From the NCBI GenBank assembly GCA_021413675.1, contig JAIOQA010000007.1, positions 1 through 64,000 of the forward strand: a stretch of DNA of 64,000 nucleotides, in the 5' to 3' direction. The DNA comes from Deltaproteobacteria bacterium. GTDB lineage: Bacteria; Myxococcota_A; Polyangia; Haliangiales; Haliangiaceae. Positions 1,097 through 38,212 of this stretch are shown in pieces. A program made the translations under genes and the position numbers. The notes beneath the pieces are model-generated. The model did no database searches. It worked only from the letters and a program-made list of their open reading frames with translations, and had not been told where the DNA came from. Every line of letters begins with the position of its first letter. The first letter of the stretch is position 1.

Positions 1097-2417
<1,321 letters not shown>

Positions 2418-2434
<17 letters not shown>

Positions 2435-3671
2435 CGCCCCGGTCGACGCGGGGCCACCGCCGAGCAAGCTGAAGATCATCGCGCGCAAGATCTGGTGGCT
2501 GCACTCGTTCGGTGCGCTGTCGATCGGCGTCGGCGTGATGCTGTTCGCGCGCGCCGGCCTGGCCTACGCCGACAAGCTGCTGATCGCGCTGTGCGGCTCG
2601 TGGCTCCTGGTCTTCATCGCGCTGCGCTTCATCGTCGGCCCGGCCAACCGCAGGCCCGACGAGCACGTGGTGCGCAAGGGCGTGCGCCTCGCGACCAACT
2701 ACGTCATCAAGCAGTTCTACCAGCAGATGTTCTTCTTCCTGGTGCCGTTCTACGCGTCGTCGGCGACGTGGGCGCTGGGCTCGTGGAACTGGTGGCTCGC
2801 GCCGATCCTCTTGGTCTGCGCGGTCATCTCGACGATGGATCTGGTCTTCGACAACTTCATCATGGAGCGGCGCTGGCTCGCGTCCGTGATGTACGGCCTC
2901 GCGCTGTTCTCGATGATCAACGTGCTCTTGCCGGTGATCGCCGGGATGACCCACTTCGAGAGCCTGCTGACCGCCGCGGCGCTCACGCCGACGGCGGTCG
3001 CGCTCCTGTCGTTCTCGGTCGGCAGCGTGCTGTCGCCGCAGGGGCTCTTGCTGACGATCGCGGCGACCGGCGCGCTGGTCGGCGGTGTGTGGTACGGGCG
3101 CGCGTTCGTGCCGCCGGCGCCGATGGCGATGACCGAGGCCGCGGTCGGCCACGGCACGTACAGCAACTACGAGTGTCTGCCGCCGTCGAAGCACGTGCTG
3201 CGGCAGAACCAGCTCGACGGCCTGCGCTGCGGGGCGCTCCTGCGCGAGCCCGGCGGCGTGCACGACGCGCTGGTCCACATCTGGAAGCACGGCCACGACG
3301 TGGTCGCGCGCATCGTGCCCGAGAAGCTCGACTGCGACGGCCCCGACGTCGTCGTGTTCCGTAGCTCGCTCCCGAAGGCGCAGCTGCCCGCGGATCCGCG
3401 CGGCCAGTGGACGTGCATCGTCGAGACCGAGCAGGGCCAGCTGGTCGGCATGCGCCGCTTCGAGGTGGTCGGCGCCGACGGCAAGCCAAAGGGCGAGGGC
3501 GCCGAGAGCCCGGCGGCTCCGACCGACGCGGGCGTCGCGCCCGATGCCGGCGTCGCCGCGCGCGATGCCGGAGCACCCGCCGCGGATGCTCGGCCCACGC
3601 CCGATGCGGCTCCCGCGCTCGATGCGCCACCGCTGCCCGACGCCGCGCCGCTCCTCGACGCCGCACCCTGA
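2418..3671 (+). CDS. DUF5924/DUF2914 membrane protein with Ala/Pro/Asp-rich tail
   Basis: Integral membrane protein of 417 residues. Residues 1-30 are cytoplasmic and basic, about six to seven hydrophobic segments occupy residues 35-235 (DUF5924-like), and residues 240-350 resemble the soluble DUF2914 domain, with conserved Trp/Cys in WTCIVET and a final GMRRFEV. Residues 355-417 are a low-complexity tail of DAG, PDA and LDA units common in myxobacterial envelope proteins. It overlaps the aminotransferase, so co-expression is likely. Molecular function of the family is not established. Confidence 0.75.
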
Positions 3672-9156: not shown

Positions 9157-10761
9157 CTATTGTGCCAGGAAGCGGACTTCGGTCGAGCCGACCCGGATCG
9201 CGACGCCGTGGCTCAGCGAGTACTGGGTGACGCGCACGCCGTTGACGAAGGTGCCGTTGGTCGAGCCCAGATCGACGAGCGTGCAGTTGCCCGCCGCGTC
9301 CATGAGGATGTGGGCGTGGTTGGTCGACGCGAACCCGTCCTGATCGAGCATGAGGTCGGAACCCGGCGCCTTGCCCATCGTGAACCCGTGGCGGAGGCCG
9401 ATGCGCTGACCCTCGCGCGGGCCGTTCATGATGAAGAGCTGCGGCCCGTAGATCGGCGCGGCGACCGCGGGCGGAGCGGCGACCGGCGCGGGCGGTCCGC
9501 CGACCGCCGGCATGCCCGCGGTCGGCGGCGCGTTGCCCGCGGCGTCGACGATGCCGGGCGCCCCGGCCAGAAACGCATCGAGCGCGCCGCCCGCCTTCTT
9601 GTGCTTGCGCTTGGTCATCACGACGCCGATGACCGCGAGGCCGCCGAGCAAGGCCACGCCGCCGCCGATGAGCAGGAGCAGCCAGCCGAGGATGCTGCGC
9701 TTCTCCTCGACCCGCGGCTGCACGCAGCGATCGGCGGCGCAGTAGCCATCGGCCGGGCACTCCTGGCCGGCGCACATCGGCGCGATCGGGACCTTGACGT
9801 CGTTGGAGACCAGCGCGGGCTTGTCGGTGGCGACGCCGACCTTCTTGCCCGCGACCTCGTCGGCGGCGACCAGGAACGTCAGCACGTACTGGTGGTTGAT
9901 CTCGTCGTGGACGCGCTCGAACGCGGCGTTGAAGCCCTGCTCGCCGCCGAGCTCGACGTAGCGGAACGCGCCGAGCGAGCGCTTGGACAGCTCGGCGAGG
10001 TGGAGCAGCGGGCCCTTCGAGCCGGCGACGCCGCCGGGCGGCGCCTTGAGGTTGGGCACGTACGCGATCGTGTCGATGCGGACGCCGGCCTTGCCCGCGC
10101 GCGTGCCGAGGTTCGTGATCTTGGTGCGATCCTCGTCGAGATCGCGACCGTCGCCGATGATGAGCAGGATCTTGCGGACCGGCACGCCTTCGGGGTCGGC
10201 CTTCGCGTTGCGCAGGATCGTGAGGCCCTTCTCGACCGCGGCGACCAGCTTCGGCGTGTCGCCGGCCTCGGTCGATAGCCCCGCGAGCTTGGTCTGGGCC
10301 TGCTTGACCGGGCCGAGCTTGGTGCCGCCACCGATCTTGTCGCTGTAGCCGATGACCGCGACCTGGGTGTTCGCGGGCAGCGTGCTGAGCACCTGCTTGT
10401 CGAGCGCGGCGGCGATGATCGGGAGGTCGGTCTTGAAGTCGTCGGTGGTCTCGACGAGGATCACGATCGCGGTCGGCAGGGTCGTCGCGTCGTAGAAGCC
10501 CGCCATGTACGCCAGGCGCTTCTCGCCGTTCGACACCCGCAGCTTCCACGCCTTGTCGCCGTAGATCGCCAGCGGGCCGGCGGTGCGGGTCGGATCGAGC
10601 GTGGTCACCAGGAGGCGCAGGCGAGCCACGCCCGGCATCGGCGTCGGTTCGAGATCCGCGCGATCGACGACCAGGCGGCTCGAGACCGTGCCGCCCGCGT
10701 GGGCCGGCGTTGCGGTCGCGATCCAACTCGCCGCCAGACACCCCAGGAGTAGCCGTCGCAT
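9157..10761 (-). CDS. Exported VWA protein with transmembrane helix and C-terminal FHA domain
   Basis: 534-residue membrane protein. An N-terminal signal peptide ends near TPAHAGG; residues about 80-290 form a von Willebrand A-like domain (TAIVILVETTDDFK, KILLIIGDGRD); a Cys-rich segment with CAGQECPADGYC follows; then a strong transmembrane helix near residue 335 (LLLLIGGGVALLGGLAVIG) with a basic stop-transfer KRKHKK; a Pro/Ala linker; and a cytoplasmic FHA domain (GRIGLRHG-like start, STNHAHI, LVDLGSTNGTFVNG), which in this family binds phosphothreonine. The start at 10761 is chosen because it begins the signal peptide. It could transmit kinase signals to the co-transcribed amidases. Confidence 0.85.
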   Translation of the reverse strand: MRRLLLGCLAASWIATATPAHAGGTVSSRLVVDRADLEPTPMPGVARLRLLVTTLDPTRTAGPLAIYGDKAWKLRVSNGEKRLAYMAGFYDATTLPTAIVILVETTDDFKTDLPIIAAALDKQVLSTLPANTQVAVIGYSDKIGGGTKLGPVKQAQTKLAGLSTEAGDTPKLVAAVEKGLTILRNAKADPEGVPVRKILLIIGDGRDLDEDRTKITNLGTRAGKAGVRIDTIAYVPNLKAPPGGVAGSKGPLLHLAELSKRSLGAFRYVELGGEQGFNAAFERVHDEINHQYVLTFLVAADEVAGKKVGVATDKPALVSNDVKVPIAPMCAGQECPADGYCAADRCVQPRVEEKRSILGWLLLLIGGGVALLGGLAVIGVVMTKRKHKKAGGALDAFLAGAPGIVDAAGNAPPTAGMPAVGGPPAPVAAPPAVAAPIYGPQLFIMNGPREGQRIGLRHGFTMGKAPGSDLMLDQDGFASTNHAHILMDAAGNCTLVDLGSTNGTFVNGVRVTQYSLSHGVAIRVGSTEVRFLAQ

Positions 10762-10809
10762 GCTGGCGGTAACGTAACGCGACGGTGACCGTCGCCGCAA
10801 TCGGTCCAA

Positions 10810-11847
10810 CTACTTGCGCGGCGCCAGCCGGAAGCGATGCGTGATCGGCACGAACGTGAGGAGATCCATCTCGGCGGTCACGGTGCCATCGGTCCAGTTG
10901 TTGATGATGAGCGGCAGGCCGTCGGCGTCCTTGTGCGACGACACCACGCCGATGTGGTCGGGGCCGGGTCGCGACGGGAACGTGTCCATGAAGACGACGT
11001 CGCCCGGGCGGTAGGGATCGGTCGCGTCGTCTGCGGCCGCGGTGTGCGCCTCGAGGTGGCGCTGGAAGAACGGCAAGATCGTGCGGACCCGGCGCTGGTC
11101 GATGCTGGGATCGCCCTTGCCCTTGACCATCGGGTAGGCGCGCGGGGCGCGGGCGATGTCGGCGTGGAGCTCGGCCTGGAGATCGAGGCCGGCGTTACGC
11201 AGCGCGCGGATCACGACGTCGGTGCAGACGCCCATCGTGCGCGGCACGTCGCCCATCGGGTAGCGCATCGAGACGTAGCCCTCGGTGTAGGCGTCGGCGT
11301 TGAGCACGGTCTTGGCCGCGCCGAGGAACGTGTCGAGCGGATCGGGGATGCCGTCCTTGTCGCGATCGGCGCCGCGCGGCGCCGCGAGCCGGTCGGCGCG
11401 CAAGAGGGGCGCGAGCTCGGTGCGATCGCCCGGGCGCAGGTGGAGCGTGCGATCGCCGACCGCGAGGGTCGCGTCGCCGCCCAGCGGGTAGGGCTTGGTC
11501 GGCCAGTCGTCGACGTAGAGCACCAGGACCTGGTGCTTGTCATCGACGGTCGCGCTGACCCGGTCGGGCGTGAGGTCGGCGGGCAGGGCGATCTGCACCT
11601 GCGGGTCGAGATCGGACCAGATGCCGCGGTCGGCCACGCCGAGGCAGCTCTCGGCCGGGGCACGGGGCTCGGCGCTGACCGGGCCCGACGGCGGCTTCGC
11701 GGCCGGGGCCTTCTCGGTCGCGCGCTCGGCCTCCGCGCTGCGGCAGGCGCAGACGACCGAGATCACGAGGGTTCCTGCCCGGCGAAGATTCTTGGAACCG
11801 AATCCGCGGGCCGGTGTCAGTCGAGCCACTGGGTCTAGGTCGCGCAT
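10810..11847 (-). CDS. DUF1287 (NlpC/P60-like fold) lipoprotein-like protein
   Basis: 345 residues. The start is set by a textbook AGGAGG four bases before ATG 11847. A basic N-terminus is followed by LVISVVCAC, a short hydrophobic signal with a possible lipobox Cys. Residues about 170-345 match DUF1287: MGVCTDVVIRALRNAG (presumed catalytic Cys), YPMVKGKGDPSIDQRRV, PGDVVFMD, DHIGVVSS (presumed His) and INNWTDGT. The family belongs to the NlpC/P60 papain-like hydrolases, often acting on cell-wall peptides or amides. First gene of the operon that continues with VWA-FHA and the two amidases. A DKDGIPD Ca-type motif lies just before the domain. Confidence 0.8.
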   Translation of the reverse strand: MRDLDPVARLTPARGFGSKNLRRAGTLVISVVCACRSAEAERATEKAPAAKPPSGPVSAEPRAPAESCLGVADRGIWSDLDPQVQIALPADLTPDRVSATVDDKHQVLVLYVDDWPTKPYPLGGDATLAVGDRTLHLRPGDRTELAPLLRADRLAAPRGADRDKDGIPDPLDTFLGAAKTVLNADAYTEGYVSMRYPMGDVPRTMGVCTDVVIRALRNAGLDLQAELHADIARAPRAYPMVKGKGDPSIDQRRVRTILPFFQRHLEAHTAAADDATDPYRPGDVVFMDTFPSRPGPDHIGVVSSHKDADGLPLIINNWTDGTVTAEMDLLTFVPITHRFRLAPRK

Positions 11848-28930: not shown

Positions 28931-31117
28931 TTACATCGGCTGGGCGGTGAAGCCCTGGGCGCGGATCTGCGCGACATCGATGAAGGTCGACGCGCCGCTC
29001 TTGAACGCGCCGGAGTTGAGCTCCTGCACCGCGCGCTTGTTCGCGACCGCCATCGCCTGCTCGAAGGTCGCCGGGCCGCCGACCATCGTGGTCTCGACGA
29101 ACAGCGGATCACCCTTGGTGCCATCGGCGGCCACGGTGTGCCAGCCGACGAACGCGTGGCCCGGCACCAGCACGATGATCGGCTTGATGCCGATCGCCTC
29201 CATGAGCGTCGCGAACAGGAGCGTGCCCTCGAGGCACTGCGCGTTGGTCGAGGCCAGCACCTCGCCGGGCAGGCGCGTGCGCTGCACGAAGTGCGCGGTG
29301 CTGGTCACGTCGGGATCCATGACGTAGCTGACCCCGCGGGCCTTCAGCGCGTCGAACAGCGCCTTGATCTGCGGCGTGGTCGCGTCCTGCTCGCCGACGA
29401 ACGCGTGGCCGGGGAGCCGGGCCTTGGCCTCGGTCAGGAACGCGTCGACCGCCTTGTCGTTGGGCGTGATCCACGCGCCGAGGTAGCCGTACGTCGGGAC
29501 CATCGAGTCGGCGCCGACCTTGCGGCGCAGCGGCAGGTAGTCGCGGGGCAACACCTCGATCGGCATCGTCTCGTCGAGGATCGCGCGGTCGGCGCCCTTG
29601 GTGGTCTCGATGACCTTGAGCGCGAGCTGGGCCGGGCGCGGGCCGCGGATGATCGCCGGATCGAAGTCCATCTTGAGCGGCGGGGCGACCCACAGCACCT
29701 GCGAGCCCTTGGCGTCGAGCGACACCGAGTTCGAGCTGCGCTCGGTCACGCCCGGGACCTCGGCCTCGATGCGGAAGGTGCGCGCGACGCCGGCGTGCTC
29801 GCGCAGCTTGATCGTGACCAGCGCGCCGGTCTCGGCCTTGCCCATCAGGTGGTACACGCCGATCGGCAGCTGCGGCAGCGGCACCGCCTCGAAGTAGAAG
29901 CCGTGCGCGACCGCCTGCTCGCCGGCCTGCCGGGCCTGCGCCATCGCGGCGGTGACCCGCGGGTTGGACTTCCCGACCTCGGCGATCTCCTTGATCGCAT
30001 CCTTGGGGTGGCCGGTGACGACCTCGGCGGTGGCGCGCAGCAGCCGGTTGAGCTGGACGGCCTCGTCGGTGGGCGCGATCTTGGCGCGCGCCAGATCCGC
30101 GAGCGCGCGGTTGGCGGACGCCTCGCACGCGTCGTACTGCTCCGCGCGGCAGTACACGAAGGTGAGGGCCGCGGTCAGCATCGGACCGCTCTTCGGGAAC
30201 TGCTTGGCCAGAGCCTTCGCGGTGTTGATCGCGCGGTCGTACTCGCCGAGCTCGGCGATCGCGCGCACGATGCGCGCCGGCAGGCGATCGTCGGGCGCGA
30301 TGTCGAGCAGCGTGAAGCCCGCGCCGATCGCCGCGCGCCAGCGCGCGGTCTTCGTCGCGCACAGCCCGAGCGTGTTGAGGCCGGGCACCGCCTCCTGCGG
30401 GACCTTCTCCTCGGGGAACGCGACCGGCAGCGCGGCCTGCAGGCCGTCGACGACCTGCTCGCACTCGCCCTGATCTTTCTCGACGCGCGCGACGGCCTCG
30501 TCGACGATCTGCCGGGCCTGGGCCGCGGACATCGCCGTGGTCTGCGCCGGCATCTCGTTGCCGGTCGACGGTGGCTTCACCGGATCGGCGAGGCGCACCA
30601 CCGCGAAGTGGCGGTTCTCGGCGGTGAACGCGAGGAACTGCAGCGGCGGTTTGCCGTCGAGGTTCGCGAGGTAGAGCTCGGCGCCGGGCAGCGGGATGGC
30701 CTCGTCGGACTTCGTCAGCGTCGCGGCCTTGTAGTCGGCGCCGACCGCCACCGCCTGATCCCAGGCGCTGTCGAGCATGTCGACGACCTCGGGACAGCGC
30801 TTGAACGCGGGCACCGCCGCGCACGCTGCGTAATCGGGCACGAACCGCCGGGCGGCGGCCTTGTCGCCGGCGGCCATCGCCGCGAGCAGGCCCTGGCTCG
30901 CCGCGAGGCCGGTGTCGGCGCCGCGCGTGTCAGCGGGCGGCGCGGGGGTGACCGCGCCGGAGCCCGCGGGGGCGACAGGCGTCTTCGGCGTGTCGCCCGA
31001 GCCCGCCGCGAAGGCGCCCGCGGCGCCGGTGGTGGCCTTGGCGAGCCCGCTGTCACCCGATGACTTGCCGCAGGCGCCGAGTGCCAGCACCGCGATGACC
31101 AGACGTGATCCACCCAT
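28931..31117 (-). CDS. Lipoprotein with TPR-like half and transglutaminase-like C-terminus
   Basis: 728 residues. AGAGGAG seven bases before ATG 31117 fixes the start. Signal LVIAVLALGAC gives a lipobox Cys. A Gly/Pro/Ala linker is followed by helical repeats (about residues 60-400; for example AIAELGEYDRAINTAKALAKQF, LTFVYCRAEQYDACEASANRAL), a beta-rich middle, and a transglutaminase-like C-terminal domain with the triad order Cys-His-acid: NAQCLEGTLLFATLMEAIG, VPGHAFVGWH and FVETTMVG. Such proteins act as envelope cysteine proteases or binding scaffolds. Alone on its transcript. Confidence 0.75.
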   Translation of the reverse strand: MGGSRLVIAVLALGACGKSSGDSGLAKATTGAAGAFAAGSGDTPKTPVAPAGSGAVTPAPPADTRGADTGLAASQGLLAAMAAGDKAAARRFVPDYAACAAVPAFKRCPEVVDMLDSAWDQAVAVGADYKAATLTKSDEAIPLPGAELYLANLDGKPPLQFLAFTAENRHFAVVRLADPVKPPSTGNEMPAQTTAMSAAQARQIVDEAVARVEKDQGECEQVVDGLQAALPVAFPEEKVPQEAVPGLNTLGLCATKTARWRAAIGAGFTLLDIAPDDRLPARIVRAIAELGEYDRAINTAKALAKQFPKSGPMLTAALTFVYCRAEQYDACEASANRALADLARAKIAPTDEAVQLNRLLRATAEVVTGHPKDAIKEIAEVGKSNPRVTAAMAQARQAGEQAVAHGFYFEAVPLPQLPIGVYHLMGKAETGALVTIKLREHAGVARTFRIEAEVPGVTERSSNSVSLDAKGSQVLWVAPPLKMDFDPAIIRGPRPAQLALKVIETTKGADRAILDETMPIEVLPRDYLPLRRKVGADSMVPTYGYLGAWITPNDKAVDAFLTEAKARLPGHAFVGEQDATTPQIKALFDALKARGVSYVMDPDVTSTAHFVQRTRLPGEVLASTNAQCLEGTLLFATLMEAIGIKPIIVLVPGHAFVGWHTVAADGTKGDPLFVETTMVGGPATFEQAMAVANKRAVQELNSGAFKSGASTFIDVAQIRAQGFTAQPM

Positions 31118-31435
31118 GTCGCTCCTCTGGCGCCCGCGATGGCGGGACGCTTCCTCGATCATTGTGCAACGTTTCCTCACGCCGGTGGCGTTGCCCCGAG
31201 TGTCGCGACATGCGCGCGCCGGTTGCGTCTCGGCCATCGATTTTTTCGGGGCGCGGCGGGATGTCGCCCGGGCTTAGGGCGCGCGGTCGCGTCTCGATGT
31301 CGGCGGCGGGCGCTGGTGCTGTCATCGCGATGTCACGTCGCGCCTCACCCTGGGCCCGGTTGAGCTCGGATCGCGGCCCGCGTACGATGGCCGCGTGGGT
31401 GCATTGGCGACGTGGACCGTGGGGGTGATCTCGTG
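31118..31435. other. Divergent intergenic region (318 bases)
   Basis: Lies between the transglutaminase-like lipoprotein gene and a plus-strand gene of unknown function. It has an AT-richer patch ATCGATTTTTTCGG near 31238. I see no gene or clear repeat; promoters for both neighbours are expected. Confidence 0.4.
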
Positions 31436-31972
31436 ATGAACGTGCTGGCGCTGGCGCGCGAGCCCCTGGAGTACGCGCCTTTCGGCGCGCGCGAGCCGGC
31501 GCTCGAGGTCGTCGCGGGGCTCGTGCTCGTGCGCCGCGCCTGGGGCGGCGTGGCCTCCATCGACCCCGAGGTGATCGTGCGGGTCTGCCCGCGCGGCGCG
31601 CACCAGGTCGACGTGGCGATCGAGCTGTGGCGGCTCGCGGGCTGGCCGGAGCGCGCGCGCCAGATCGAGGCGATCGTCGAGAGGGTCATCGAGGACGAGG
31701 GCAACGCGGCCTCGGCGCGCTCGATCGCCGAGCTCCTCGACCTCCTCGCCGGCCTCGATGACGCGCTCCGCGACTCCGTGACCGACGCGCAGCTGCGGGT
31801 CGACGCGGCGGCGCTGCCGATCCTCCGGGCGCACTCGCGCCTGCTCGATCTCGCCGACCGGCCCGGCCACGTCGCGACCGAGGGCGTGGCCGAGGCCGTC
31901 GCCCAGACCCGCGAGCTCCAGGCGGTGCTCGAGGACGCGCTCGCGGGCGGGCTCGCGGTCCGCTTCGCCTGA
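31436..31972 (+). CDS. Hypothetical helical protein
   Basis: 178 residues from ATG 31436 (GGGGGTGAT about 8 bases upstream; an adjacent GTG is an alternative). Almost entirely helical, Ala/Leu/Arg/Glu-rich, without signal or membrane segment: LWRLAGWPERARQIEAIVERVIEDE, SIAELLDLLAGLDDALRDSV, VAQTRELQAVLEDAL. No family recognised. It precedes the peptide/oxygenase cassette by 344 bases on the same strand, which may or may not be meaningful. Confidence 0.6.
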   Translation: MNVLALAREPLEYAPFGAREPALEVVAGLVLVRRAWGGVASIDPEVIVRVCPRGAHQVDVAIELWRLAGWPERARQIEAIVERVIEDEGNAASARSIAELLDLLAGLDDALRDSVTDAQLRVDAAALPILRAHSRLLDLADRPGHVATEGVAEAVAQTRELQAVLEDALAGGLAVRFA

Positions 31973-32316
31973 TCGGTAGTCGCCAATTGCCCATGTGATC
32001 GCGCGGCGCGGGTTGCGCTGCGAGACGGGCAATTCACGGCAGGGGATCGCGCCAGGGAATGGCGCCGTTCCTCGGCAGGGCCTGGCAGAATCCGCTGCGA
32101 TTTCCTGACGGTACAGAGTCTGCCTGGTGCGAATTGCCCCGGTGGACGTGGACGGATCGCCACACCCTGGTTCCGCTTGCCGGGTGGATTCGCACATCGA
32201 TGCTGGCAACCATGTGATTGCCAGATGCCGAGTTTGCTGGCCGATGCATTGCAGTGTTGCGGCCCGTCGAACGGCTCATCGTTCGCACGTGACCTGATCA
32301 GACAAAGGCATCCCCC
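31973..32316 (+). promoter_or_regulatory. Upstream region of the peptide cassette with sigma-54-like promoter
   Basis: 344 bases, clearly less GC-rich than the genes around it. TGGCCGATGCATTGCA at 32238-32253 has the GG-N10-GC spacing of sigma-54 promoters and matches TGGC...TTGCA, giving a start near 32263 and a leader of about 54 bases. The 8-mer AATTGCCC occurs at 31985-31992 and 32132-32139, and its complement GGGCAATT at 32027-32034, at distances expected for activator sites. CATGTGAT also occurs twice (31992 and 32211 areas). Functional assignment is inference. Confidence 0.45.
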
Positions 32317-32529
32317 ATGAAGCAAATCAAGAAGTCCCTCAGCGCTGGCGACCTGAAGACCCTCGAGACCGCGGAGCTCGCGCCCGCCACCGGTGGTGGC
32401 TACGAGCTGGTCAACGGCATTCCCTGGGACCAGCTCAACACGAGCATCTTCGGCAACCTCGGGAACATCGTGATCAAGGGCCCGTTCGTCAACGGCATCC
32501 CGGTCGGCCCGGTCTTCGGCGGCGGCTGA
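32317..32529 (+). CDS. Putative modified-peptide precursor A (GGG leader)
   Basis: 70-residue peptide. The first 28 residues look like a leader: MKQIKKSLSAGDLKTLETAEL, then APATGGG, a Gly-Gly-type leader end resembling bacteriocin and RiPP leaders. The following 42 residues are hydrophobic and Gly/Pro/Asn-rich (NGIPWDQLN, SIFGNLGNIVIKGP, NGIPVGPVFGGG) with no Cys. AAAGG lies nine bases before the ATG. An intrinsic terminator follows, then the oxygenase gene. The core shares PW...IF...GxIVIK with precursor B. Predicted secreted or processed peptide; the mature form is unknown. Confidence 0.72.
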   Translation: MKQIKKSLSAGDLKTLETAELAPATGGGYELVNGIPWDQLNTSIFGNLGNIVIKGPFVNGIPVGPVFGGG

Positions 32530-32539
32530 GCGCTTGATA

Positions 32540-32586
32540 CCGCGGGCCGATCGGAGGTCTCGATCGGCCCGCGGCCCCCTTTTTTT
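32540..32586 (+). terminator. Strong intrinsic terminator after precursor A
   Basis: A 14-bp perfect stem (CCGCGGGCCGATCG at 32540-32553 with 32561-32574), 7-base loop, then five C and seven T (32580-32586). It sits between the precursor and the oxygenase gene, so part of the transcripts should end here, giving more precursor than enzyme, or the oxygenase needs readthrough or its own promoter. Confidence 0.85.
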
Positions 32587-32614
32587 CGCGACCTCGATCT
32601 CGCGGAGTCCGCGC

Positions 32615-33922
32615 ATGTGCACGCCCCTGACCGCTCTCGAGACCTTGCTCGGCACCGCCGGCGCGGCGCAGCTCCGCGCCCACTGGCCGAGCCGGCCGCT
32701 CGTCGTTCATCGCAGCCTCGCCGAGCTCCCCGGCGCGCTCGTCGATCCGCTGCTGCTCGAGCCGAGCAACCTGACCCGCGTGTACCGCGGCGTCGTCGAG
32801 GTGACCAACGGCAAGCTCGGGCAGTTCCGGCTGAGCGGCGTGGATCCGAGCGTGTACTTCGACGTGCTCGGCCTGGCCGCGCGCTTCTCCGAGCTCGAGA
32901 CCTACCTGCCCGCGGCGACGCCGTGGCTGCGCGCGCTCGAGCGCGATCTCGGCATCCCCGAGGGCGCGGCCAGCCTGCACGCGTTCATCAACGCCGAGGG
33001 TGTGGGCCTCATGACCCACTGCGATCCCGGCGAGCACATCGCGATCCAGCTCGCCGGCACCAAGCAGTTCCGGTTCGCGCCCAACCCGCTCGCGCGCCAC
33101 ACCTCGATGTCGCACGCGCCGTCGCGCGAGCCGTCGCGCACCGCGCTGGCGCAGAGCCCCGACGGCCTGCCGACGTGGACGCCGCTGCCCGCCGACGCCG
33201 AGACGGTCGTGCTGTCGCCCGGATCGGTGCTGTTCCTGCCGCGCGGCTGCTACCACGAGACGATCGGCGGCGCGGGCGGGCGCTCGGTGACGCTGGTGAT
33301 CCAGGCGATGACGCCGAGCTACGCGCAGCTGCTCGTGCCGTACCTCGCCGACTACCTGGCGCAGGCCGGGGCCTGGCGCGAACCGATCACCGGCGCCTGG
33401 CCCGACGAGGCCGCGGGTCGGCCGGCGGTGGAGGCGCGGCTGCGCGAGCTGCTCGCGGAGCTCGCCGGGCACCTCGGCGGCCTGTCGACCGAGCACCTGC
33501 TGCGCCACACCCAGAAGGGCACGGCGGCGCTCGGCTTCACGCGCGGCGCGCAGCTCCAGCGCAACCCGGTCGCGCAGGTCGCGCTCGCCGTCGCGGGCGA
33601 CGCGCTCGCGGTCGAGGTCGCGGTCGCCGGTGCCGCGCCGGTCCGCGCGTCGCTCCACGCCGACGTCCTGCCGATCCTCGACTGGGCGCTCGCGCCGCGC
33701 CGCCGGTTCGCGTTCGCGGCGCTGGTCCAGGCGTTCGAGGACTGGGACGACGCCTCGCTCGCCGCGATCGTGCGGTTCCTGGTCACGCACCGCGCGCTGC
33801 TGGTGCTCCCGGTCGAGCCCTACGGCACGGCGGCCGACGGTGATCCGCCGGGCACGACCGGGGAATCGGCGGCACTGCCGATCAGCCAGACATCCGTGGA
33901 CCATTCCTCAGCTGTCCAGTGA
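32615..33922 (+). CDS. JmjC/cupin-type Fe(II)/2-oxoglutarate-dependent oxygenase
   Basis: 435 residues from ATG 32615 (CGGAG upstream). The N-terminal 270 residues have the bacterial JmjC (MINA53/NO66/RoxA-like, cupin_4/8) layout: HWPSRPLVVHRS, then INAEGVGLMTHCDPGEHIAIQ, where His135 and Asp137 form the HxD of the iron facial triad, GTKQFRF with Lys150, and SVLFLPRGCYHETI with His214 as distal ligand. The rest is helical and winged-helix-like, as in ribosomal oxygenases. Characterised relatives hydroxylate ribosomal protein residues. Placed between two short GGG-leader peptides, this one probably hydroxylates or otherwise oxidises them; that is inference from context. Confidence 0.85.
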   Translation: MCTPLTALETLLGTAGAAQLRAHWPSRPLVVHRSLAELPGALVDPLLLEPSNLTRVYRGVVEVTNGKLGQFRLSGVDPSVYFDVLGLAARFSELETYLPAATPWLRALERDLGIPEGAASLHAFINAEGVGLMTHCDPGEHIAIQLAGTKQFRFAPNPLARHTSMSHAPSREPSRTALAQSPDGLPTWTPLPADAETVVLSPGSVLFLPRGCYHETIGGAGGRSVTLVIQAMTPSYAQLLVPYLADYLAQAGAWREPITGAWPDEAAGRPAVEARLRELLAELAGHLGGLSTEHLLRHTQKGTAALGFTRGAQLQRNPVAQVALAVAGDALAVEVAVAGAAPVRASLHADVLPILDWALAPRRRFAFAALVQAFEDWDDASLAAIVRFLVTHRALLVLPVEPYGTAADGDPPGTTGESAALPISQTSVDHSSAVQ

Positions 33923-33953
33923 GCGTGTCAATCAACAATCCAGGAGTCTCTCG

Positions 33954-34157
33954 ATGATCAAGCGTCCTCTCATGCAGGTTCACGGCGGCACCGAGCTGTC
34001 CCCGGCGGCGCTCGCGCAGGTCGCTGGCGGCGGCGAACCCGAGCCGGTGCCGTGGCGCGTGTTCGATCCGCGCCTGTTCACCCTCGATCCGGGCCTCGTG
34101 ATCATCCGCGACCTGCCGCGGATCGATCCGACCCGGCCGCCGCCGCTGCCCTGGTAG
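33954..34157 (+). CDS. Putative modified-peptide precursor B (GGG leader, Pro-rich core)
   Basis: 67-residue peptide with AGGAG ten bases before its ATG, 31 bases after the oxygenase stop. Leader MIKRPLMQVHGGTELSPAAL ends in AQVAGGG, close to the LSxxELxxVxGG pattern of double-glycine leaders. The core of about 40 residues is Pro-rich: EPEPVPWRVFDPRLF, TLDPGLVIIRDLP, and the end RPPPLPW. No Cys, so lanthionine or sactionine chemistry is excluded. Its core aligns with precursor A over PW...[IL]F...G-x-[IV]-[VI]-I-[KR]. It ends eight bases before the convergent LytTR regulator gene. Confidence 0.7.
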   Translation: MIKRPLMQVHGGTELSPAALAQVAGGGEPEPVPWRVFDPRLFTLDPGLVIIRDLPRIDPTRPPPLPW

Positions 34158-34164
34158 CCCGCGG

Positions 34165-34938
34165 TCACATCTGCCGGAACAGGTGCAGGTAGCTCCGGCT
34201 CACCGGCAGCACCTCCGCGCGGCCTTTGAGATGGATGTCGGCGCTGTCGCTGTCGCCGCGGACCACGTGGCTGACCGCGCGCAGGTTCACCACGATCGCG
34301 CGGTGGACCTGCGCGAACTGGTCGGGATCGAGCTGGGCGAGCAGCTCCTTCACGCCCAGCCGCACCAGCGCCTCGGCGGGCTGGCCGCCGTCGCGCCACG
34401 CGACCAGCGTGTACTTCGCGTCGGCGCGCAGGTAGTCGATGTCGTCGACGGCGATCAGCCGCACCGTGCGTCCGACCTGGGCCTTGAGCCAGCGCAGCCG
34501 CTCGGGCTGCGCCGCGGGCGCGAGCTGCGCCGTCAGCTGCCGGAGCAGCGCCTCCACGTCGCCCGCGGGCGCCGCGGCGCGCAGCCGCGCCTGCAGCCGC
34601 GCGACCGTGTCGGCGAGCCGGGCCGGCTCGACCGGCTTCACCAGGTAATCGAGCGCGCCCTGCGCGAACGCGCGGACCGCGTACTGATCGAACGCGGTCA
34701 CGAACACCAGGTGCGCGCGCGCGCCGACGTGCTGCGCGACCTCGACCCCCGAGATGCCGGGCATCTGCACGTCGAGGAAGCAGACGTCGGGGCGGTGCGC
34801 GTCGAAGCTCGCGATCGCCTCGCGGCCGTTGCGCGCCAGGGCGACGATCGACAGCGCCGGCCAGGCCTGCGCGAGCTGCGCGGCGAGCGCCTCGCGCAGC
34901 AGCGGCTCGTCGTCGGCGATCAGCGCGGTCGCGCGCAT
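34165..34938 (-). CDS. LytTR-family response regulator
   Basis: 257 residues from ATG 34938, which overlaps the kinase stop (ATGA). Receiver domain: ALIADDEP (acidic pocket), CFLDVQMPG with Asp56 as phospho-acceptor, LVFVTAFD and LDYLVKPVEP with the conserved Lys. Residues about 150-257 form a LytTR DNA-binding domain (LIAVDDIDYLRADAKYTLV, FAQVHRAIVVNLRAVSHVV, VLPVSRSYLHLF). LytTR regulators often control peptide pheromone or bacteriocin genes. Third gene of the amidohydrolase-kinase-regulator operon, convergent with the peptide cassette. Confidence 0.92.
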   Translation of the reverse strand: MRATALIADDEPLLREALAAQLAQAWPALSIVALARNGREAIASFDAHRPDVCFLDVQMPGISGVEVAQHVGARAHLVFVTAFDQYAVRAFAQGALDYLVKPVEPARLADTVARLQARLRAAAPAGDVEALLRQLTAQLAPAAQPERLRWLKAQVGRTVRLIAVDDIDYLRADAKYTLVAWRDGGQPAEALVRLGVKELLAQLDPDQFAQVHRAIVVNLRAVSHVVRGDSDSADIHLKGRAEVLPVSRSYLHLFRQM

Positions 34939-36032
34939 CACGCCGCGTCCTTCGCCGGCAGATCGAGCTCGGCGCACACGCCGTGGGGCGCGACCTCGGA
35001 CAGCCGCAGGTGCGCGTCGTCGCCGTAGGACAGCGCGAGCCGCGCGCGCAGGGTCGCGAGGCCGGTGCCATGGCCACCCGTGCTCGTACTCAGGCCGAGC
35101 CCGGTGTCCGCGACCCGGACAATGCAGCGCCCGTCGCGCAACGCGACATCGAGGTCGATGCGGCCGCCGTCCTCGCTCGGATCGATGCCGTGGCGGACCG
35201 CGTTCTCGACGAGCGTCAGCACCGTGATCGGTGGGCAGCGCACGCCGCCGGCGCCGTCGTCGACCCGCAGCGCGAACGCCAGGCGGTCGGGCATGCGCAG
35301 GTGCATCAGCTCGAGGTACGCGCGGACCAGCTCGAGCTCGTCGGCGAGGGTCGTGTGCGCGTCATCGAGGCGCGGCACCGCGGCCCGCAGGTACGTCGTC
35401 AGGCTGCGCAGCACCGGCGCCGCCTTCGGCGAGCCGGCGTCGACCAGCGCCTGCACGTTGGCGAGCGAGTTGAAGAGGAAGTGCGGCGCGACCTGCGCCT
35501 GGAGCAGCTGCAGCCGCGCCTCCAGCGCCTGGCGCTCGAGCTCGCTGCGCTCGAGGTCGAACTCCAGCGCCTGGTGGCGGGCGAACGCCTCGCGCTGGCG
35601 GACCAGCGCGGCGAGCGCGGCCCACGGCGCGATCAGCACGCCGAGGAAGGTCAGGTAGAAGAAGCCCTCGAAGCGGGCCTGGTCCTGCCAGAACGGCGGA
35701 TCGCCGAGCGCCATGAACCCGAGGTACATCGCGAGCGAGCCGAGCGGCACCGCGAGCGCGGTGACGATCACCTGCAGCACCCAGCGCGCGAGCCAGCGCG
35801 GCAGGCGCCGCGGCCACTGCTCGGTCACGCCGAAGGCGATCATCGCGACCAGGCCCACGGCGATCGCGCGCGGCAAGACCGAGGTCAGCCCGCTGCGCCA
35901 CTCGGGGCTGAGCAAGAGCCAGGCGCCGAGCGCGGCGCCGAGGACGAAGCGCACCCGCCGCCAGCCGACGATCCGCGCGAGCGCGCTCGGTTGTCGCGGA
36001 GAGACCACGTTCCGTGAAGCGTAGGCGATCAC
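34938..36032 (-). CDS. LytS/YehU-type sensor histidine kinase
   Basis: 364 residues from GTG 36032, which overlaps the stop of the amidohydrolase (GTGA). About four hydrophobic segments lie in residues 24-145, with no large sensor domain, followed by a coiled-coil region (EFDLERSELERQALEARLQLLQ). The phospho-acceptor is His184 in QVAPHFLFNSLANVQ, the PF06580 signature. The ATPase motifs are VLTLVENAVRHGI (N box), VADTGLGLS (G1) and GTGLATLRARL. It should phosphorylate the LytTR regulator encoded directly downstream. A ligand sensed in or at the membrane is expected. Confidence 0.92.
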   Translation of the reverse strand: MIAYASRNVVSPRQPSALARIVGWRRVRFVLGAALGAWLLLSPEWRSGLTSVLPRAIAVGLVAMIAFGVTEQWPRRLPRWLARWVLQVIVTALAVPLGSLAMYLGFMALGDPPFWQDQARFEGFFYLTFLGVLIAPWAALAALVRQREAFARHQALEFDLERSELERQALEARLQLLQAQVAPHFLFNSLANVQALVDAGSPKAAPVLRSLTTYLRAAVPRLDDAHTTLADELELVRAYLELMHLRMPDRLAFALRVDDGAGGVRCPPITVLTLVENAVRHGIDPSEDGGRIDLDVALRDGRCIVRVADTGLGLSTSTGGHGTGLATLRARLALSYGDDAHLRLSEVAPHGVCAELDLPAKDAA

Positions 36033-37312
36033 CGGGGCGCGCGGTCGATCGGATATCCGTTCTTGAAGATCTGGACGATCGCGCGGGTCGCGGTGATGTC
36101 GACCAGCGGGTCGCCGTCGACGAGCACGAGGTCGGCGCGCGCGCCTGGCGCGATGCGGCCGCGGTCCGCGAGCTCGAACGCGCGGGCCGGCGCGAGGGTC
36201 GCGGCGGTCAGCGCCTCGGCGGGCGTGAGTCCGGCGCGCACCAGCAGCTCCAGCTCGCCGTGGAGCCCCGCGCCATACGCGCCGAAGTTCGAGGCGTCGT
36301 CGCCGGCGAGGATCGGCACGCCGGCCGCGCGCAGCCGCCGCGCATTGTCCGAGGCCTGCGCGAGGTTGAACCGCACGAGGTACGGCCCCATCGGATCGTC
36401 CGGCGTCGGCGCCGTGACCGCGAGGTCCTCGCGCTGCCCGGCGGTGAGGAACGGCGCGATGCGCGGGTCGGCGGCGAGCGACGGCGAGATGCCCTTGCCG
36501 GTCAGGTGCGCGTGCGCGGTGAGCGTCGCGATCACGAACATCTCGTGCGCGACGATCGCGTGGATCAGCACGTCGTCGATCGGCTGGTCGCCGAACAGGT
36601 GGGCGAGGCCGTCGGCGCCGGCCGCGACCACGCCGCGCGCGCCGGCCTGCGACGTGATGTGGACCGCGGTGATCGCGCCCTGGGTGTGGGCCGCGGCGAC
36701 CACCGCGGCGAGCGTCTCCTGCGAGATCGTCGACACGATCTCGGCGTCGGGCTCGAAGAGGATCTTGAGGAACGCGGAGCCCTCGGCGAGGCGGTCGCGG
36801 ACGAACGCGGGCGCCTCCTCGGGCCCGGCGATCGTCGGAAACGGGATCCCGAACTGCGTGCCCATGCCGCCCGCCGAGGTCACCGGCGCGCCGGCCGAGA
36901 ACATGTCGGACAGATCGGTGCGCGCGAGGGAGTCGCGCTGGGCGCGGTGCGCCTGCATGAACGGCACCTCGGTGAACATGTCGAGCTGCGTGGTCACGCC
37001 GAACCGCAGCGCATCGCGCAGCATCGTCTCGGTGCGCACGTGGGTGTGCGCGTCGATGAGGCCGGGCAAGAGCGTGCGCCCGGCGCCGTCGACCACCGGC
37101 AGATCGCGGGGCGGCGCGTGGGTGTCGACCGACGCGATGCGGCCGTCGCGGACGACGACGTTGGCGTGCTCGATGGCGCGCTCGCCATCGAAGACCCGCG
37201 CGTCGATCACCACGAACGAGTTGCCGTCGAGGGGCAGGGCGGCGCGGGGGGCGGGCACGGCCGCGCCGCACGCGGCCAGCCCGAGGAGGATCGAGGAGAG
37301 GCGGAGGTGCAT
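36029..37312 (-). CDS. Lipoprotein metal-dependent amidohydrolase (imidazolonepropionase/prolidase-related)
   Basis: 427 residues. MHLRLSSILLGLAAC gives a lipobox. The rest is an amidohydrolase-superfamily barrel of the COG1228 group: GRTLLPGLIDAHTHVR with metal-binding His89 and His91, AFLKILFEP with the Lys position that is often carbamylated, AVHITSQAG and LAHLFG (two further His), and ILAGDDASNFG (catalytic Asp). Relatives include Xaa-Pro dipeptidases and aryl-hydrolases. It is the first gene of a coupled operon with a LytTR two-component system, and a Pro-rich peptide is encoded next door, so peptide trimming or signal turnover is plausible but unproven. Confidence 0.85.
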   Translation of the reverse strand: MHLRLSSILLGLAACGAAVPAPRAALPLDGNSFVVIDARVFDGERAIEHANVVVRDGRIASVDTHAPPRDLPVVDGAGRTLLPGLIDAHTHVRTETMLRDALRFGVTTQLDMFTEVPFMQAHRAQRDSLARTDLSDMFSAGAPVTSAGGMGTQFGIPFPTIAGPEEAPAFVRDRLAEGSAFLKILFEPDAEIVSTISQETLAAVVAAAHTQGAITAVHITSQAGARGVVAAGADGLAHLFGDQPIDDVLIHAIVAHEMFVIATLTAHAHLTGKGISPSLAADPRIAPFLTAGQREDLAVTAPTPDDPMGPYLVRFNLAQASDNARRLRAAGVPILAGDDASNFGAYGAGLHGELELLVRAGLTPAEALTAATLAPARAFELADRGRIAPGARADLVLVDGDPLVDITATRAIVQIFKNGYPIDRAPR

Positions 37313-37510
37313 GCCGGCACGATAAGCAGCGCCTGACCGGCGCGCCGGCGTCCTGCGACGAGCGGCGGGAATCGGGGTGCGAACCGCGGCCAGGCGGCGC
37401 GAACCGCGGTGCCCGCGAACCGCGCCGCGGCGCGAACCAAAGACACGCGTGCGCGCCCGGCGTGCGTCGCCGATTGATCGGCCGCATCGATCGGCGCATC
37501 GTCAACCTCC

Positions 37511-38212
37511 ATGCGCATCCTCCGCCCGATCGCCCTCTGCGTGCTCGTCGCTGCCTGCGGCGGTGACCCGAGCACCCCCGCCGACGTCGACGCCGCGGTC
37601 GCGATCGACGCCACCGCGGGCTGCGACCCGACGACGGCGCTGCCGACGCAGTGGCGGCCGATCGCGATGACCTCGACGGGCGCGTTGACGGTCACGACCG
37701 CGAACGGCGTCACCAGCGGCACGATCGACGCCACCGCCGGCGGTACCGCGGCCGCCGCCGACAACCCGTACGTCTATCTCGACCTGATGAGCGGCACCAA
37801 GGTCGACATCACCGACACCGCGTCGCTGTCGTCGACCGCGTGGCACGTCGCCTTCAAGCGCGCCGGCATCAAGCTCAACGGCGGCGACTCCGGCCCGGGC
37901 ACGGTGTCGGCCGCGTCGGTCGATGCGGCCACCCTCGCCGAGGTCACCGCCGCGCCCACCGGGCTCGCCGTCGACGACTGGGCGGACGCGAGCTGCGCGC
38001 TGGTCGCCGGTCCCACCGGTGAGCCGGCGACGGTCATGTCGGCCTGGTACGACTACGACAGCCAGACCCACGTGTTGACGCCGAAGGCCCAGGTCTGGGT
38101 CATCCAGATCGCGCCGGGCGTGTACCGCAAGCTGCGCATCGAGACCTACTATGGCGATCCGGCCAACACGATGCGCGGCGCGTACTACAAGGTCGAGTGG
38201 GCGGCGCTGTGA
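37511..38212 (+). CDS. HmuY-like lipoprotein
   Basis: 233 residues with lipobox ALCVLVAAC. After a Thr/Ala/Asp-rich segment, the beta-rich body carries the HmuY-family pattern YVYLDLMSGTKVDITDTASLSSTAWHVAF split by short loops, KRAGIKLNGGDSGPG, and the late WVIQIAPGVYRKLRIETYY. HmuY proteins of Bacteroidetes bind haem; myxobacterial relatives are uncharacterised and the His ligands are not evident here. The stop overlaps the GTG of the next gene, so the two are coupled. Confidence 0.78.
   Translation: MRILRPIALCVLVAACGGDPSTPADVDAAVAIDATAGCDPTTALPTQWRPIAMTSTGALTVTTANGVTSGTIDATAGGTAAAADNPYVYLDLMSGTKVDITDTASLSSTAWHVAFKRAGIKLNGGDSGPGTVSAASVDAATLAEVTAAPTGLAVDDWADASCALVAGPTGEPATVMSAWYDYDSQTHVLTPKAQVWVIQIAPGVYRKLRIETYYGDPANTMRGAYYKVEWAAL

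Follow-up and report, generated by a model that had tools for sequence, protein, structure and literature searches.

The 64,000-nucleotide stretch analyzed here (the window) is positions 1 to 64,000, forward strand, of contig JAIOQA010000007.1 (C471 in our numbering), part of the 10.8-Mb genome of a Deltaproteobacteria bacterium of the Haliangiaceae (assembly GCA_021413675.1). A first-pass annotation of this DNA had pointed to a candidate peptide system, in which two short frames with double-glycine leaders (precursors A and B) flank a gene for a JmjC-type oxygenase, next to a LytTR two-component system and an amidohydrolase. All three frames were recovered where this annotation had placed them, in the order A, oxygenase, B on the forward strand, and both peptides are free of Cys, as it had noted (Table 1). 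A is separated from the oxygenase gene by 85 bp, and the oxygenase gene from B by 31 bp. The genes for the amidohydrolase, the sensor kinase and the LytTR regulator lie on the reverse strand and point toward this group, with 7 bp between the end of B and the end of the convergent regulator gene. As predicted frames, A, B and the oxygenase show the layout by which ribosomally synthesized and post-translationally modified peptides (RiPPs) are recognized, that is, precursors with leader and core beside a modifying enzyme.

Table 1. Features of the locus in window coordinates, with one gene arrangement from related loci in the last line (locus coordinates).
Feature	Position	Strand	Basis or context
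Upstream region of A, three AATTGCCC copies, candidate operator	31973-32316	+	genome-wide motif count
Predicted precursor peptide A (70 aa) with double-Gly leader and 43-aa core	32317-32529	+	frame, leader pattern, codon-position GC
Hairpin with T run, terminator-like, in the gap from A to oxygenase	32540-32586	+	perfect arms, fold z
JmjC/Cupin_8 2-oxoglutarate oxygenase, 435 aa, H135-x-D137...H214, K150	32615-33922	+	Pfam, PDB match, AlphaFold2/Foldseek, alignment
Oxygenase C-terminal RRE-like winged domain, residues 305-408	33527-33838	+	predicted model and Foldseek
Predicted precursor peptide B (67 aa) with double-Gly leader and 41-aa core	33954-34157	+	frame, leader pattern, codon-position GC
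LytTR response regulator, neighbour, probably outside the cassette	34165-34938	-	Pfam; relative pair in G156
His_kinase-type sensor kinase, neighbour	34938-36032	-	Pfam; G156 relative
Amidohydrolase lipoprotein, neighbour	36029-37312	-	Pfam, relatives scan
MFS-GNAT-PqqD-methyltransferase genes and YxbC-type JmjC gene	L117:3384-8837, L121:71-3559	divergent	Bacillus, Alicyclobacillus; no precursor identified

Double-glycine leaders carry hydrophobic residues at positions -12, -7 and -4, followed by Gly at -2 and -1. The corresponding landmarks are L16, E20-L21 and G26-G27 in A and L15, L20, V23 and G25-G26 in B, with the predicted cut after the second G of a GGG run in both peptides. Counted from this cut, A presents L(-12), E(-8), L(-7), A(-4) and GG(-2/-1), and B presents L(-12), L(-7), V(-4) and GG(-2/-1). 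The alanine at -4 of A is a weak fit, and this position was widened to admit it, which makes the pattern partly post hoc. Of the window's 191 short frames that start with ATG and encode 35-110 aa, only 3 fit the pattern, two of them being A and B. In a comparison set of 24 loci (one overlapping the window), searched with slightly wider settings (ATG or GTG starts, 30-120 aa), 21 of 2333 short frames did so. The two double-glycine peptides reported by the first-pass annotation were thus borne out, with the leader in one register in both and a pattern that is rare among short frames. Codon-position GC values were 0.59/0.43/0.93 for A and 0.78/0.52/0.88 for B. Since 63 of the 191 short frames pass the same coding-like GC filter, these values say little by themselves, and the leader pattern is the better argument that A and B may be genes. 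Downstream of A, a hairpin with arms of 14 perfect pairs and a T run separates A from the oxygenase gene. Its fold z was -3.68, none of 200 shuffles being equally stable, and the scan for terminator-like sites found this one site versus 1.2 on average in shuffles.

The oxygenase passed the curated Pfam cut-offs for JmjC_2 and Cupin_8, and PF08007 was present in all 25 aligned oxygenase sequences. H135, D137, K150 and H214 were invariant in this alignment; at the sequence level the iron triad (HxD...H) and the 2-oxoglutarate Lys positions are intact. The best match in the PDB by sequence was Bacillus YxbC (1vrb, 7zcc; E 3e-16). YxbC also came first when an AlphaFold2 model of the whole protein (mean predicted local distance difference test score, pLDDT, 85.9) was compared by Foldseek, and was followed by MINA53, NO66 and YcfD among others. 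Sequence and predicted model together place the protein among the JmjC 2-oxoglutarate oxygenases, which have an HxD/E...H triad on a JmjC fold.

The C-terminal 104 residues (305-408) were folded alone with 19 relatives (pLDDT 89.7). The model has the order βββ-ααα, with strands at 16-23, 26-33 and 39-44, helices at 45-54, 63-69 and 75-87, and short extra strands at 9-12, 60-62 and 91-94. This is the winged-helix order of RiPP recognition elements (RREs) as defined in PMC12710340. A Foldseek comparison of the isolated domain with 350,542 PDB chains returned 892 matches with E no higher than 10. Among the best 50 of these, the five listed with a query-based template modeling score (TMq) above 0.45 were TigE (E 0.018, probability 1.00), TbiB1, ThcOx, PbtF and McbBCD. 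Two of the five are annotated as leader-bound or RRE structures (TbiB1 with the TbiA leader, and the PbtF RRE), and TigE, ThcOx and McbBCD we take to contain RREs as well. Because all five are RiPP proteins, the C-terminal domain, as modeled, looks like a fused RRE. The ribosomal oxygenases YcfD, NO66 and MINA53 have a C-terminal winged domain too; none of them was among the best 50 of the 892 matches.

Relatives of the oxygenase were found in at least 29 of 289 genomes of the class at E up to 1e-10, own genome included (up to 6 candidates scored per genome), and a phylum sample of 377 genomes gave at least one match at E up to 1e-25, that of the own genome (4 candidates per genome; the genome of locus L003 was unmatched). 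In these two scans and the kinase scan below, scoring covered a subset of the first-look candidates, and the E-limited counts are lower bounds. The closest relatives, at loci L003 and L004, have 34% and 33% identity, and a second oxygenase of the own genome (L002, contig C201) is short (302 aa) and has unrelated-looking neighbours. Scanning a genome contig database gave 0 matches with the single oxygenase query and 30 loci with a four-member alignment; genes were listed in 14 of these 30, and the other class-scan matches were viewed with 1.5-kb flanks only. A plasmid scan gave one match, in Streptomyces (26%). A RiPP marker gene was present in at least 6 of 46 wider neighbourhoods (L114, L117, L121, L135, L145 and L146), a lower bound given that the tblastn queries for markers were limited to proteins from these loci; several of the 46 come from one genome.

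The best case of a relative in a RiPP setting is Enhygromyxa salina SWB007 (L114, extended by L162), where a gene for a protein of 29-32% identity begins 3 bp downstream of a YcaO gene. Further JmjC genes lie upstream (2040-3335) and downstream (9775-11325) of it in L114. C39-ABC, HlyD, B12-binding radical-SAM and second radical-SAM genes follow farther upstream in L162, and Pfam confirms the radical-SAM, C39 and HlyD genes. Downstream, a double-Gly short frame with TTLAxGEED repeats (L114:13701-14042) stands ahead of an ATP-grasp gene, and HlyD and C39 genes lie there too; no precursor was identified for the YcaO/JmjC genes themselves. The whole island spans L114:2040-17199 plus L162, and the TTLAxGEED frame is graspetide-like. 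At L146 (genome G102), the JmjC gene comes after genes for a LanB dehydratase and a B12-radical SAM protein; this locus has two JmjC matches and a sulfotransferase/Asp-hydroxylase protein after them in the list of genes downstream of these two. At L135 (G230), the JmjC gene precedes HlyD and C39-ABC genes; a prolyl-oligopeptidase-like frame, as read from its sequence, lies near it (L135:4321-10335), and no precursor was identified there. At L145, a C39 match lies at the locus edge, about 5 kb off. A YxbC-like gene stands opposite to a methyltransferase-PqqD-GNAT-MFS operon in both Bacillus xiamenensis and Alicyclobacillus suci (assigned by Pfam in Bacillus; in Alicyclobacillus PqqD by Pfam, the other genes by sequence reading). 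The YxbC-like proteins of these two loci are about 320-330 aa long and have no fused C-terminal domain, PqqD (an RRE) being a protein of its own. The short form at these two loci is thus accompanied by a separate RRE, the long form having an RRE-like domain fused to it. The B. subtilis yxb/asnH genes presumably form a similar operon. Among the other relatives, the order large protein, JmjC, sigma-factor-like protein recurs in Polyangia (L138, L134 and L141 in G220, G230 and G247; for L138 alone, Pfam gave a protein kinase and sigma-70 region 4), and L094 has a 74-aa frame upstream of its JmjC gene.

Known systems resemble the locus in part. BipG and PbsQ are JmjC/cupin-like enzymes reported to hydroxylate RiPP precursors (accessible parts of PMC12707348 and PMC12257519). 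The biphenomycin BipG/BpmG and pbs PbsQ enzymes are, as here, encoded with RiPP precursors. Compared by the description in these parts, BipG and PbsQ act on ornithine or after an arginase step in multi-enzyme pathways with multinuclear non-heme iron-dependent oxidative (MNIO) and B12-radical SAM enzymes, whereas the oxygenase here is the sole adjacent candidate maturase and has two double-Gly precursors. Fish and algal proteins that combine PF08007 JmjC with an RRE-like domain are described in the accessible part of PMC12710340, which places the closest bacterial homologues of these fusions (about 30% identity) in RiPP-like contexts. These fusions, like the protein here, join JmjC to a βββ-ααα domain. 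Unlike the fusions from fish and algae named there, which had no nearby precursors, the gene here is flanked by candidate substrates. Neither RiPP logic nor JmjC tailoring is new in itself; our searches of open-access literature listings showed no paper on a cassette like A-oxygenase-B, self-contained and with twin precursors.

Peptide hydroxylation is the best reading of the locus, because it has two double-glycine peptides, an oxygenase from a family that occurs in some RiPP clusters, and an RRE-like domain on this oxygenase. We therefore lean toward A-oxygenase-B being a minimal RiPP cassette in which the oxygenase hydroxylates A and B, which is also the most economical account. In this cassette, the C-terminal domain would dock the leaders of A and B, and the JmjC domain would hydroxylate each peptide at one or more side chains of its core, in the manner of BipG and PbsQ. 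A C39-ABC/HlyD exporter encoded elsewhere would then cut after GG and secrete the products, and the hairpin after A may allow more A than oxygenase to be produced. Four C39 matches over the cut-off were found in the own genome, of which the two strong ones are Pfam-confirmed C39-ABC proteins beside HlyD genes. An exporter is thus available in the genome, and both of these lie on other contigs, in line with the first-pass remark that no C39 transporter is nearby. The accompanying remark that no known RiPP enzyme is nearby was too pessimistic, as the oxygenase seems to be just such an enzyme. More tentatively, the locus might stand for a bacterial RiPP class with hydroxylation only, in which an oxygenase with fused RRE is the sole maturase of two double-Gly peptides and export occurs in trans; we hold this to be possible, though rather doubtful. 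A and B would then perhaps form a two-component product. The [V/I]-I-[K/R] step common to both cores, at K54 of A and R52 of B, could, speculatively, be a site of modification.

Several observations weigh against a peptide-hydroxylating cassette, and the first group concerns the peptides. The likeness of the A and B leaders still speaks for the cassette: in 5000 shuffles, the local alignment score was attained 35 times for the whole peptides and 29 times for the leaders. The core score was attained in 798 of 5000 shuffles, so the similarity of the cores, with their shared PW...F...VI[K/R], is not significant. Pfam gave no family for either peptide; A had no match at E up to 1, and B showed a weak leader similarity to TIGR04497 (E 0.024, below cut-off). 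For A, the 289 class genomes gave the own locus and three others at E 0.04-0.07, judged chance. For B, 28 of 30 family genomes matched at E up to 1, the best beyond the own at 0.03, again judged chance. A joint A and B profile matched 56 of the 289 class genomes at E up to 0.5 (up to 20 candidates scored each), with 5e-39 for the own locus and 0.003, judged chance, for the next best. Searches of plasmids for homologues found none, and no second copy of A or B was seen in the own genome. No homologue above chance level thus emerged from these searches, and A and B draw no support from conservation. The first-pass annotation had let its proposal hang on short peptides beside related oxygenases, an expectation that fared unevenly. 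No A/B homologue was found, no candidate A/B-like peptides stand beside L003 and L004, and all five double-Gly pattern fits within 2.5 kb of 30 relatives were judged spurious (this radius missed the L114 peptide), yet the wider neighbourhoods do include the six with a RiPP marker. One could also think that A and B are spurious frames in GC-rich DNA beside an ordinary JmjC protein. The failed homologue searches in class, family and plasmids agree with this, as does the little that GC proves. A simple GC-based gene caller, moreover, called A and missed B, whose frame runs without a stop from as far back as 33630, within the oxygenase gene, and whose start (ATG 33954) was chosen on its ribosome site (CCAGGAG) and leader. 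We nevertheless regard spurious frames as very improbable, because A and B make up two of only three leader-pattern fits in the window, B has a good ribosome site, and A has a terminator-like hairpin of its own.

The second group of adverse observations concerns the enzyme and its surroundings. None of the 892 Foldseek matches of the C-terminal domain fell below E 0.001, the best being at 0.018. PF05402 (PqqD) was not among the Pfam families matched by 20 members of this domain, and hhalign of the domain against a two-sequence PqqD alignment gave a probability of 0.1%. No protease or exporter adjoins A-oxygenase-B; in this it departs from systems with peptides exported by C39 proteins (peptidase-containing ATP-binding cassette transporters, PCAT), with which it shares the leader pattern and, genome-wide, the C39-ABC and HlyD genes. 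None of the sought RiPP markers was present in 40 of the 46 neighbourhoods. Long-form relatives in Caballeronia, Pseudomonas and Janthinobacterium lie, by sequence reading, amid flavin monooxygenase, TonB and transporter genes, and these metabolic-looking settings are evidence that the family does not serve RiPP pathways in general. Because such relatives share it, the C-terminal domain alone is no proof of a RiPP role; the same domain occurs at L102, L106, L107, L109 and L110 (Pseudomonas, Caballeronia and a Burkholderiales bin), with neighbours read as flavin monooxygenase-like, TonB receptor-like and substrate-binding. A and B could accordingly be real double-glycine peptides, microcin- or bacteriocin-like and C39-exported, that stay unmodified, with the oxygenase acting on another substrate such as a ribosomal protein or a small metabolite. 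This would suit the relatives in metabolic-looking settings, the little that the two cores have in common, and the appearance of MINA53, NO66 and YcfD, which have ribosomal substrates and the same JmjC fold, after YxbC in the whole-model comparison. We consider it unlikely, since the oxygenase sits between both peptides, 31 bp from B, its C-terminal domain matches RiPP proteins rather than ribosomal oxygenases within the best 50 of 892, and some of its relatives lie in RiPP clusters.

Upstream of A, we found three copies of AATTGCCC (31985 on the forward, 32027 on the reverse and 32132 on the forward strand), out of 14 copies in the whole genome, and the three copies of AATTGCC in the window all lie within 31985-32138. 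The motif was picked after inspection; even so, such a tight cluster of a rare word is unlikely to have arisen by chance, and it is a candidate operator for some regulator. A AATTGCCC regulon was considered and rejected, as the other 11 sites share no gene type, 8 being inside called genes and 3 before unrelated genes. Partly palindromic repeats (e.g. 32203-32224) are present upstream of A too. No sigma-70-like promoter was found in 31900-37600, and an Rfam search of 31000-38000 gave no match. Directly upstream of the A promoter region lies a coding-like frame of 186 aa without Pfam match (31412-31972).

The coupled amidohydrolase-kinase-LytTR genes that the first-pass annotation described beside B are indeed there. 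The kinase gene (GTG start; His_kinase and HATPase_c) overlaps both neighbours by 1-4 bases, the amidohydrolase has an Amidohydro_1 domain and a lipobox-like N-terminus, and the regulator (Response_reg-LytTR) likely starts at an ATG at 34938 in a frame that opens at 34977. A HmuY-like lipoprotein gene (37511-38212) is divergent from the amidohydrolase gene. In Gram-positives, double-Gly peptides are often under the control of LytTR systems, and the pair and the amidohydrolase may likewise belong to the peptide system, sensing mature A or B or inducing the A promoter, with the amidohydrolase trimming or inactivating a peptide. The tight convergent packing, the overlapping genes and the three rare sites upstream of A would fit this. 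However, AATTGCC occurs nowhere else in the window and hence not upstream of the amidohydrolase gene, and no exact match to the LytTR consensus site (mismatches not tried) was found near or upstream of A. Moreover, genome G156 has a kinase relative of about 56-57% identity followed by a LytTR regulator of 69%, and the amidohydrolase, the oxygenase, A and B were all missing from the 17.8 kb searched there by tblastn with 14 window proteins; this is a single case. The regulator was thus not found conserved together with a peptide gene, the one close relative pair standing without peptides. At E up to 1e-35, kinase matches were present in at least 5 of 289 class genomes, own included. A search of 27 other family genomes for the amidohydrolase at E up to 1e-70 found one relative, in G072 and not in G156. 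This and the G156 pair are thin evidence that these genes can travel apart. Because the G156 pair stands without peptides, oxygenase and amidohydrolase, a two-component link to the peptides is not supported; what ties the three genes to the peptides is adjacency only. They are most likely mere neighbours of the cassette, and their taking part in it is, in our judgment, quite improbable. What survives of the first-pass proposal is hydroxylation as the best reading, on the leaders, the RRE-like domain and the relatives in RiPP clusters; LytTR sensing or control of the peptides does not.

The locus puts two well-defined candidate substrates next to an RRE-like JmjC enzyme from a bacterium, where the RRE-JmjC fusions named in the accessible part of PMC12710340 had none nearby. 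Whether RRE-JmjC fusions are peptide-tailoring enzymes thereby becomes directly testable at this locus, and if the hydroxylating cassette is real, it would widen myxobacterial RiPP chemistry.

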